A DNA stretch of 64,000 nucleotides, from positions 1-64,000 of the forward strand of contig JAIOHM010000213.1 in NCBI GenBank assembly GCA_019912965.1, written 5' to 3'. A model generated the notes under the pieces. The model did not search any database and was not told the DNA's origin. It was given only the letters and a program-made list of their open reading frames with translations. Both the position numbers and the translations under genes were made by a program. The DNA comes from Anaerolineae bacterium. Its GTDB lineage: Bacteria > Chloroflexota > Anaerolineae > Aggregatilineales > Phototrophicaceae. Shown here one piece after another: positions 10,716 through 13,858 of this stretch (within the stretch, counting starts at the first letter, position 1; each line of letters begins with the position of its first letter).

Positions 10716-11040
10716 TTACTCCGGGAATTTACGCACAAAGTTGGTGGCTTGTTCCAGCCAGACAATATGATTTTTTCACTGCTGGGTCCGAGTTCGAGAG
10801 TCAATCGTTGAAGACCAAGTTCAGCCAATGTGGGCAATAGGATGGCATGATAGTGCGCCAACCGTTCCTGATGTGCCTCCATTTGCTGAGTCAGGAGTTC
10901 AATGATGCGGATATTGGAAATCCCGCCGGCGAAGAATAACTGCACCAGAAAAGGTTCACGGTAGACAGGTAGTGCTTGTGGGGTTGTGAGCCAATTTTCA
11001 AGTTCAGCATGTCCGGCTTCGGTAACGACTTAACTCTTCG
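10716..11040 (-). pseudogene. PadR-family regulator remnant with frameshifts
   Basis: Reverse-strand VTEAGHAELENWLTTPQALPVYREPFLVQLFFAGGISNIRIIELLTQQMEAHQERLAHYHAILLPTLAELGLQRLTLELG, then the homologous C-terminus HIVWLEQATNFVRKFPE* in another frame. Confidence 0.65.
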
Positions 11041-11041
11041 C

Positions 11042-11070
11042 TTGACAGCTTTTTCCCGACGCGGTAAGCT
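11042..11070 (+). promoter_or_regulatory. Candidate sigma70-type promoter for the lysC leader
   Basis: TTGACA (11042-11047), 17-nt spacer, TAAGCT. Confidence 0.5.
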
Positions 11071-11098
11071 AATCGCCGTCAAGGAAGTGAGCCAAATA

Positions 11099-11188
11099 AT
11101 GAACATCCTGACAATTTGTTGCACGACTATGGGTATGGGTACTACTACTCCACATAAAAAAATGCGGGGGAGTTTCCGATTGCCATAG
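11099..11188 (+). CDS. Leader peptide of the aspartokinase attenuator
   Basis: ATG...TAG encodes MNILTICCTTMGMGTTTPHKKMRGSFRLP; T/M/K/I/N runs; preceded by AAGGAAGTGA; followed by terminator and aspartokinase. Confidence 0.7.
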   Translation: MNILTICCTTMGMGTTTPHKKMRGSFRLP

Positions 11189-11214
11189 ACAGGCAGCGAC
11201 GACGTAAGCGAACG

Positions 11215-11246
11215 AAGCGTGTGGAAATCCCCCACACGCTTTTTTA
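11215..11246 (+). terminator. Intrinsic terminator/attenuator upstream of aspartokinase
   Basis: AAGCGTGTGG-aaatccc-CCACACGCTT followed by a T-run; lies between leader ORF and start codon. Confidence 0.88.
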
Positions 11247-11266
11247 TTTATCTGGAGAAGGCACTC

Positions 11267-12682
11267 ATGAAAACGATAACGATGAAATTTGGCGGTACAT
11301 CCGTCGGCGGCCCGGAGGCGATCAGCAATGTGGTGGAGATCGTCAAGACCGAACGTGAGGCGGGCAACCGCGTCATTGTGATTGTCTCTGCGATGGCGGG
11401 CGTTACGGATAATTTGCTGGCTTCGGTGAACGCGGCGGTTTCCGGCAATAAGTGGGGATATCTTTCGACGGCAGACAAATTGCGGGAACGGCATGAGGAC
11501 ACGCTGAATCGACTGGTTCCACCAGGCAAACTACGTGAGAAAACCTTCTCCCAGATTACCCATTTGCTCAACGAATACACCGAAATCTGCAATGCGGTGA
11601 CAATTTTAGGCGAAAATACCGCCCGTGTGAGTGACGCAATTGTAGCTTACGGCGAACGGTTGAGCAGCCGTGTGGTGGCAGCGGCACTGAAGGCTAGTGG
11701 TGTCGAGTCAGCGGCTTATGATGCAGGTGAATTTCTGCTGACGGATGACCGCCATCAGGGTGCGACCCCACTTTGGGACGAGACGCAAGCACGGGTGGAA
11801 AATAAATTGAAACCTGCTTTGGATCAGGGTGTTACACCGATTATCACCGGCTTTATTGGGGCGACACAAAAAGGGGCGATCACAACTCTGGGACGCGGCG
11901 GGAGCGATTACAGCGGTGCGATCTTTGCAGCAGCGACCGACAGCGATGAACTGATTATCTGGACGGATGTGGATGGTGTGATGACCACTGATCCACGTGT
12001 GGACAAACGGGCGCGGGTGCTGCCTTATGTCTCGTATCAGGAAGTTGGTGAATTAGCATTTTATGGGGCGAAGGTGTTGCATCCCAAAACGGTGCAGCCG
12101 GTTCTGGATAAAGGCATTCCAATCTGGGTACGCAATACATTTAACCCGACATTTCCGGGAACGCTCATCCGCGAGAACGGTGAACCAACAGCGACGGTCA
12201 TTAAAGCTGTGACGAGCATTCGCAATGTGAGCCTGCTGACGGTCAGTGGCAAGGGCATGATCGGCGTTCCGGGCATCGCCGGACGTACCTTTCTGGCTAC
12301 GGCAAATGCAGGCGCGAGTATTTTGATGATCTCACAGTCGTCATCTGAGCAGAGTTTTTGTTTTCTGGTGACCGATGGCACAGCAGAGAACGTCAAAGAT
12401 TCGATTGAAAGCGAACTGGGCGGGGAGATTGCCCGCCGCGATATTGAGAAGGTGGATATTCAGGACGATGTGGTGATTATCACGGCGGTAGGGGCGGGGA
12501 TGCGCGGGACACCGGGTGTAGCAGGGCGAGTGTTCAGTGTGATGGGCGACAACCGCATTAATGTAATCGCTATTGCTCAAGGGGCATCCGAATGCAGCAT
12601 TTCGTTCGTGGTAGCGGAAAGCGATCTGGAAAGAGCAGTGGTTAAGCTGCATGATCTGGCGCTAGAAAGCGCGGCGGTTTAG
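11267..12682 (+). CDS. lysC: Aspartate kinase with C-terminal ACT domains
   Basis: MKTITMKFGGTSVGGPEAI N-terminus; GRGGSDYSGAIFAAA; two ACT-like repeats. Confidence 0.95.
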   Translation: MKTITMKFGGTSVGGPEAISNVVEIVKTEREAGNRVIVIVSAMAGVTDNLLASVNAAVSGNKWGYLSTADKLRERHEDTLNRLVPPGKLREKTFSQITHLLNEYTEICNAVTILGENTARVSDAIVAYGERLSSRVVAAALKASGVESAAYDAGEFLLTDDRHQGATPLWDETQARVENKLKPALDQGVTPIITGFIGATQKGAITTLGRGGSDYSGAIFAAATDSDELIIWTDVDGVMTTDPRVDKRARVLPYVSYQEVGELAFYGAKVLHPKTVQPVLDKGIPIWVRNTFNPTFPGTLIRENGEPTATVIKAVTSIRNVSLLTVSGKGMIGVPGIAGRTFLATANAGASILMISQSSSEQSFCFLVTDGTAENVKDSIESELGGEIARRDIEKVDIQDDVVIITAVGAGMRGTPGVAGRVFSVMGDNRINVIAIAQGASECSISFVVAESDLERAVVKLHDLALESAAV

Positions 12683-12718: not shown

Positions 12719-13858
12719 TTAGCCGAGATCGAAGATCACTTTCAAGGCATCGATTAAGCGGTTGAGGTCTTCACTGGTGTTGTAGCCCTGAAACGAGACA
12801 CGCAGATGCGGGCGGTCGCTCCAGACAACCTGCGGCAGTTCGATGCAAAATTCATCGTAGAGGCGGGTTTTTACGGCCAGCGCATCGCAGGGTGGCAGCG
12901 GGAAAGTGAGCATCTGCCCCAACCAATCGGTTGAATTCGGGCTGATGGGCGGCAGATCAAACAGTTCTGCTACTCGTGTTCGCGTTTCGCTGATGAGTGC
13001 GTGACAGTTGGCGCGGATGACATCCCAATTATGGGATCCTTGAAATTCGATGGCAGCGGGTACGGAAAGAAAAGCAGCGATATCCCGCGTGCCCTGCCAC
13101 TGGTTGCGCTGCACAAACGAGGCATTTTCCACATAACCCCAACTAATCACCAATGGGTCGATGATGGGGTGATGGTCATGGCGGGCATAAAGGAAAGCTG
13201 CACCTTTGGGCGCACAGAGCCATTTATGGCAGTTGCCGGAATAGAAATCCGGGTCAAGGGCTTTCAAATCCAATGCGATGTGACCGGGTACATGTGCGCC
13301 ATCCACTACCGTCAGGATGCCAGCTTCGCGGGCGCGGCGGCAAATTTCCTCTACCGGAAAAATCAACCCGGTTGGCGAGGTGATATGGCTGATAAAAATC
13401 ACTTTGGTGCGGGGTGTGACCGCCCTCCAAAAGGATTCAACAAAATCTGCATGGCTGGTGACGGGCAGCGGAACAGGATGACGGATGTATTTTGCGCCTG
13501 TTTTGCCGCAGACGAAATTCCATGTGTAGTCGAGTGCGCCGTATTCGTGGTCAGTCGCCAGAATTTCGTCGCCGGGTTGCAAGGAAAGCGAACGGGCTAC
13601 TGTGTTGATGCCAATGGTCGCATTGGGGACAAAAATCAGATTGTCTACGTCAGCGTTCAAATAAGCTGCTAAAGCTATACGTGCAGCATCCAGAAGTTGG
13701 TCATTGCGGCGACCCAGAAATTCAACGGGCTGGCGTTCCAACTCGCGCTGCCAGTTCTGGTAAGTTTCAAATACTGGAATCGGGCACGCACCGAAGGAAC
13801 CGTGATTCAAAAAGACGACATTGGGATCAAGCAAGAAGAAATCACGCAGATTATTCAA
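12719..13858 (-). CDS. Class V-fold PLP aminotransferase (isopenicillin-N-epimerase-like)
   Basis: VFLNHGSFGACP, VVDGAHVPGHIALDLKALDPDFYSGNCHKWLCAPKGAAFLY. Confidence 0.9.
   Translation of the reverse strand: MNNLRDFFLLDPNVVFLNHGSFGACPIPVFETYQNWQRELERQPVEFLGRRNDQLLDAARIALAAYLNADVDNLIFVPNATIGINTVARSLSLQPGDEILATDHEYGALDYTWNFVCGKTGAKYIRHPVPLPVTSHADFVESFWRAVTPRTKVIFISHITSPTGLIFPVEEICRRAREAGILTVVDGAHVPGHIALDLKALDPDFYSGNCHKWLCAPKGAAFLYARHDHHPIIDPLVISWGYVENASFVQRNQWQGTRDIAAFLSVPAAIEFQGSHNWDVIRANCHALISETRTRVAELFDLPPISPNSTDWLGQMLTFPLPPCDALAVKTRLYDEFCIELPQVVWSDRPHLRVSFQGYNTSEDLNRLIDALKVIFDLG

Follow-up and report, generated by a model that had tools for sequence, protein, structure and literature searches.

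An aspartokinase gene of an Anaerolineae (Chloroflexota) genome (7.76 Mb, 237 contigs) is preceded by a short leader ORF and by an intrinsic terminator with which an antiterminator competes. Together they form what is very probably a ribosome-mediated transcription attenuator, setting aspartokinase expression by the levels of charged tRNA-Thr and tRNA-Met. The element lies in the window, i.e., the whole 64,000-nucleotide stretch of DNA that was analyzed, and its layout, conservation, covariation and spacing are evident from the sequence and from comparison with relatives. A sequence-only reading of this DNA had proposed a leader-peptide transcription attenuator acting on aspartokinase. The conservation and covariation of ORF, terminator and antiterminator strongly support this proposal, and all the features which had been listed were found in place when the sequence was re-read.

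Transcription unit and distribution of the element

The gene under putative control (11267-12682, forward strand) was assigned by its ORF and homology and encodes an aspartokinase of 471 aa. The gene that follows (12719-13858) is on the opposite strand and, therefore, the transcription unit consists of the leader and a single gene. By sequence, the best structural relatives of the enzyme are the aspartokinase structures 3c1m and 2hmf, which we take to be the threonine-sensitive aspartokinase of Methanocaldococcus jannaschii, and the ThrA model scores 462 bits vs 356 bits for the lysine-sensitive LysC model. The enzyme is, as judged from these comparisons, nearer to the Thr type (M. jannaschii aspartokinase, ThrA) than to E. 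coli LysC, so that the name lysC, which it had been given in the sequence-only reading, is misleading. Thr/Met control of a Thr-type enzyme makes sense, because both amino acids derive from homoserine while lysine branches off earlier.

The candidate promoter noticed upstream of the leader (11042-11070, forward strand), which consists of TTGACA (11042-11047), a 17-nt spacer and TAAGCT (11065-11070) and would serve both leader and aspartokinase, is present and kept in relatives. A TTGACA-N17-TAnnnT promoter is conserved 24-58 nt 5' of the leader start. When the 90 nt before the leader start were scored in the 59 relatives with enough upstream sequence, a score of at least 9/12 was reached in 88% of them vs 6% of shuffles, nearly all these promoters being of the TTGACA-N17-TAnnnT form. 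A stricter consensus promoter scan does not list the window promoter because its -10 element has only 3/6 matches.

Aspartokinase relatives were gathered from 61 related genomes and a public genome set, oriented and deduplicated, which yielded 65 distinct upstream regions; the relatives of the window genome carry the names Aggregatilineales, Anaerolineae and Chloroflexi. The same layout, with leader ORF, intrinsic terminator and strong antiterminator pairing, was found in 61 of the 65 regions and is absent from L026, L034, L038 (which has a SAM riboswitch) and L091 (a Bdellovibrionales relative). The conservation that the sequence-only reading had called upon as a check is thus found in dozens of relatives, in which ORF, terminator and antiterminator are kept and covary. 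Two contigs with foreign titles, JAPUDW010000391.1 (L040, titled Bacteroidetes) and JAHHHY010000012.1 (L058, titled Pleurocapsa minor), carry the Anaerolineae aspartokinase together with the leader described here and look like mislabelled or mixed bins. A covariance model has strong hits in the window's family only, because the stems differ elsewhere. Searched against the window's own genome, it places only the window locus above background (next match, E 0.07), and the second aspartokinase (L135) and the homoserine dehydrogenase (L143) of this genome are without such a leader.

Leader peptide and control codons

The leader ORF (11099-11188, forward strand), MNILTICCTTMGMGTTTPHKKMRGSFRLP*, comprises 29 codons from ATG 11099 to TAG 11186-11188 and ends 78 nt 5' of the aspartokinase ATG (11267), with a homologous ORF in 61/65 upstream regions. 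No strong Shine-Dalgarno sequence precedes it, and ATG 11099 is an uncertain start. Its length, its distance to aspartokinase and its composition (6 Thr, 4 Met including the start, 2 Lys, 2 Ile and 1 Asn) are all as previously counted; for this leader alone, the Thr+Met content has a P of about 4e-4 vs background amino-acid use.

Comparison of the 61 leaders locates the Thr/Met block, to which codons T9 T10 M11 G12 M13 G14 T15 T16 T17 (11123-11149) correspond in the window. In frame, Thr accounts for 31% and Met for 21.5% of a 16-codon control region of the leaders, and the other two frames contain no more than 2.1% Thr and 0.1% Met, a contrast somewhat inflated by the choice of the leader frame on its Thr+Met content; the positional block was unselected. 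This block is sharply bounded: codons -6 to about -15 before the 5' strand of the antiterminator (strand 2, 11166-11177) are mostly Thr or Met, vs about 10% Thr+Met at codons -1 to -5, and codon -7 is Thr or Met in 60/61 leaders. The two residues swap freely at the same positions, and their order and number vary. Methionine beyond the start codon is present in all 61 leaders and confined to the block; it reaches 59% at codon -9 and provides the last control codon in 27/61. The first base of this last codon lies 19 nt from strand 2 in 42/61 leaders (range 13-22), a spacing which, given what is known of the ribosome footprint, is expected for a ribosome that stalls when this codon occupies the A site and must leave strand 2 free. 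Threonine codons favour ACT, with 149/302 in the leaders vs 21% in 28 long window ORFs.

The sequence-only reading had assigned the stalling signal to Thr, Met and Lys codons. Its threonine and methionine parts hold, as codons for both, which are end products downstream of aspartokinase, cluster in the 61 leaders. Lysine sensing was rejected: Lys makes up 1.5% of the control region, and a Lys pair occurs in a single leader out of 61, the AAA AAA of the window itself. Ile, which is not enriched in the control region (5.7%), and Asn had been counted there among the aspartate-family residues of the leader; neither is a block residue.

Leu-Pro-stop is the ending of most leaders in the window's genus (in the window, 11174-11188). 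Proline before a stop codon slows release, and such an ending could prolong the coverage of strand 2 by the terminating ribosome.

Alternative structures of the leader RNA

The intrinsic terminator predicted between the leader ORF and aspartokinase (11214-11245, forward strand; -17.1 kcal/mol) is present as AAGCGTGTGG-AAATCCC-CCACACGCTT, with arms at 11215-11224 and 11232-11241, followed by a T run. It covaries in 61 relatives, with 94.9% of cells paired, six pairs with changes on both sides and 53 such cells; none of 500 shuffles scored as high.

The sequence-only reading had further suggested that a segment at the end of the leader ORF could disrupt the 5' arm of this terminator. Indeed, TGCGGGGGAGTTTCC (11163-11177) pairs with GGAAATCCCCC (11223-11233), the duplex of both regions reaching -20.3 kcal/mol, and the pairing is conserved in relatives. 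Strand pairing, permutations and constrained folding delimit two strands on the forward strand of the window: strand 2, GGGGGAGTTTCC (11166-11177), in the last leader codons, and strand 3 (11223-11233), which overlaps the 5' arm, loop and 3' arm of the terminator. Among 19 non-redundant sequences (at least 4 base differences in strand 2), native strand pairs have -13.6 vs -9.9 kcal/mol for permuted ones, and none of 20,000 permutations equalled the native pairing, nor did any within the window's genus; the sequences share kinship, which makes these permutation P values optimistic. On the full alignment, RNAalifold recovered the terminator alone and missed the antiterminator and a protector hairpin because their register shifts between clades, and strand-swap permutations were used for both in its place.

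The protector hairpin had been overlooked in the sequence-only reading. In the minimum-energy fold, strand 1 (11144-11155, forward strand), which overlaps Thr codons 16-17, pairs with 11162-11173, so that these codons and the ones after them engage the 5' half of the antiterminator strand. The shuffle z-score of this 1:2 hairpin is -1.9 in the window, with a mean of -1.8 over the 61 sequences and values below -1 in 48/61, and its permutation P is 0.05 for the non-redundant sequences and 0.016 for those of the genus, both optimistic for related sequences. Support for 1:2 is borderline and weaker than that for 2:3. Dissimilar hairpins nevertheless occupy the same place in different relatives, such as CATC-GAAA-GATG (L017), GCAC-ATAA-GTGC (L012) and CTCCGGGGG-AAA-CCCCACGGAG (L015).

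The three states of an attenuator were simulated by folding partial and full-length transcripts of the 61 sequences with the ribosome footprint masked. With a ribosome stalled at the last control codon, 54/61 partial transcripts adopted the antiterminator 2:3; with the ribosome at the stop codon, the terminator formed in 61/61 and 2:3 in none. When no ribosome was present, the full-length fold was the terminator in 60/61, 1:2 engaged strand 2 in 42/61, and 19/61 partial transcripts preferred 2:3. The window transcript to 11236 takes the antiterminator fold under a stalled ribosome (-27.0 kcal/mol); without a ribosome, its strand 2 is locked in an extended 5' hairpin. At equilibrium, full-length RNA carrying a stalled ribosome still favours the terminator in 50/61 sequences and, therefore, the switch must be kinetic; the decision would have to be taken during transcription, as in all known attenuators.

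The following mechanism can be proposed. Transcription would start just after 11070 and the leader ORF would be translated behind the polymerase. If threonine or methionine is scarce, the ribosome would stall in the Thr/Met block and open 1:2, and strand 2, once free, would pair with strand 3, precluding the terminator and allowing aspartokinase to be transcribed. If both amino acids are plentiful, the ribosome would reach the stop codon and cover strand 2, leading to terminator formation. The terminator would form as well if no ribosome is loaded, strand 2 being then held by 1:2, and the protector hairpin would add in this way the third state of classical attenuation. We infer from this scheme that the leader is translated and that limitation for threonine or for methionine would each raise readthrough, the size of the response being likewise a prediction.

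Related control devices and alternative readings

Thr/Met leaders with the same geometry and unrelated stem sequences precede aspartokinase in three further families: f3 (L130, L132 and L134, the antiterminator of L130 having 15 bp), f34 (L148-L152) and f8 (L138, G059:C14; L139, G043:C56). The f8 leaders belong to an aspartokinase of more remote kinship, which shares only about 33-36% identity with either aspartokinase of the window genome (33% with that of the window), a case in which control may follow pathway role rather than gene lineage. In the sister family f4, a SAM-I riboswitch (RF00162) is directly upstream of the orthologous aspartokinase in three of the four loci examined (L123, L127 and L038, from G039, G052 and G046, respectively), which is an independent methionine link for this gene. 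This riboswitch shares with the window element the orthologous gene, its position, a transcription-termination outlet and a methionine-linked signal; it differs in sensing SAM directly, without a leader peptide. No match to SAM, lysine or T-box riboswitches or to any other Rfam family was obtained in the window leader, the detection of SAM-I in L123, L127 and L038 serving as positive control. In many other members of the phylum, inspection of the region upstream of aspartokinase revealed neither a Thr/Met leader nor a SAM riboswitch.

Leaders rich in aromatic residues were also encountered in other Anaerolineae. They share the leader and terminator layout of the window element and differ by their Tyr/Phe control codons and by the genes which they precede. 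In another family, L108 (G327:C85:2720-2822, minus strand) has a Tyr-rich leader, MQKRFMTYAYNSYGNYYYAAD, and a terminator before a gene reading as tyrosyl-tRNA synthetase (tyrS), and is a likely Tyr attenuator. L109 (G311:C261:67-171) has a Tyr/Phe leader, MIKHYSTYAFYFYGYFYAAERTRGRIVTP, and a terminator before genes reading as an AroH-type chorismate mutase and then prephenate dehydratase (pheA). L111 (G106:C150) and L116 (G071:C16) carry the aromatic-rich leaders AYYFYFYFAK and AFYFYGYFYFGG, before a gene reading as a LysE-family exporter; induction of an exporter by shortage of aromatic amino acids is odd. Their terminator is almost the same as that of the Thr/Met leader L130, a near-identical GCGTGGAGCAA[CT]CGGCTCCACGC being common to some aromatic leaders and f3 Thr/Met leaders, and a single scaffold seems to have taken on different control codons. 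L107 (G239:C90:7391-7516) has a leader ending in ..CASYYYYYAPKEGKGW.. and a terminator near a contig end, its downstream gene being cut off.

Read jointly, these data make it reasonably probable that several Anaerolineae families have, as the standard control of their homoserine-branch aspartokinase, a dual Thr+Met attenuator in which AUG serves as a sensing codon. Its stems would have been fully rewritten and its ribosome geometry kept; it would swap with a SAM riboswitch and belong to a wider set of Chloroflexota leader-peptide attenuators, with similar terminator scaffolds and different control codons.

The methionine codons could also be read otherwise. In an attenuator sensing threonine only, they would be tolerated, ACG and ATG being one base apart, or act as spare internal starts which keep ribosomes loading on the leader. 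We consider this unlikely. Threonine is somewhat commoner than methionine (31% vs 21.5%) and E. coli thrL is established to sense Thr with Ile, but the occurrence of non-initial Met in every leader, inside the block only, its 59% share at codon -9 and its use as last control codon in 27/61 argue against a passive role. Moreover, Ile, which is as near to Thr by mutation, is not enriched (5.7%), and relatives have placed the orthologous gene under a SAM riboswitch. The conserved C-terminal end of the leader (RG-x-F-R-L-P or GG-F-G-L-L) could rather evoke an arrest peptide, the nascent Thr/Met chain arresting after it has bound a ligand inside the ribosome (free Thr, Met or SAM), with no stall on uncharged tRNA. 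TnaC arrests in such a manner with tryptophan. However, the codons conserved at the C-terminal end are none other than the antiterminator strand, whose RNA pairing explains most of the conservation, the leaders of f3, f8 and f34 end differently, and Thr and Met occur in freely varying order and number, unlike in an arrest motif, which makes such a switch very improbable. Least credible of all, and barely worth retaining, is a functional small protein followed by a plain terminator or partial block unrelated to the ORF. Leader peptides can act in trans in other bacteria, as described for peTrpL (PMC7298713), but here the peptide is unconserved outside the Thr/Met block and the RNA-constrained end, and a plain terminator would leave the antiterminator covariation unexplained.

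The dual Thr+Met attenuator is closest to known systems of E. coli. Like thrL, which controls thrABC (Rfam RF00506, Thr_leader), it combines a leader peptide in which the regulating amino acids abound, a terminator with an alternative antiterminator, and control of an aspartokinase gene. It differs by its codons (Thr+Met vs Thr+Ile in E. coli), by its target, a single monofunctional aspartokinase vs an operon with a bifunctional aspartokinase-homoserine dehydrogenase, and by its phylum, and RF00506 has no match at the gathering threshold and, over 11000-11300, none even when E values up to 5 are admitted. The trp and his attenuators have the same four strands, with a protector over the control codons, antiterminator 2:3 and terminator 3:4, and sense other amino acids; in contrast to them, strand 2 in the window is encoded by the final leader codons, some 21 nt ahead of the stop, and would therefore be covered by the terminating ribosome itself. 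The element carries the defining attenuator features that a sequence can reveal, the protector hairpin being borderline.

Most known cases of ribosome-mediated attenuation come from Proteobacteria, and others have been described in Actinobacteria and Firmicutes. While its logic is textbook in E. coli, the Thr+Met pair and the Chloroflexota host appear to be new. In agreement with the sequence-only reading, which knew of no such leader in this type of organism, the open literature searched gave no account of Thr+Met leaders or of an aspartokinase under leader-peptide attenuation in Chloroflexota, a 2010 comparative survey (Lopatovskaya and colleagues, cited in PMC4833913) being outside its scope. 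The citing article lists Chloroflexi as too sparsely sampled to judge (PMC4833913).

Attenuation would thus be a conserved mode of control in the little-studied Chloroflexota, with a Thr+Met pair which fits the homoserine branch point and leaves out lysine. With Met codons as sensors, a testable question arises, since methionine limitation also slows initiation. The SAM riboswitch of f4 and the Thr/Met leader offer a clean case of two unrelated RNA devices replacing each other, and the 61-member alignment is a natural experiment in how the ribosome footprint sets the geometry of an attenuator.
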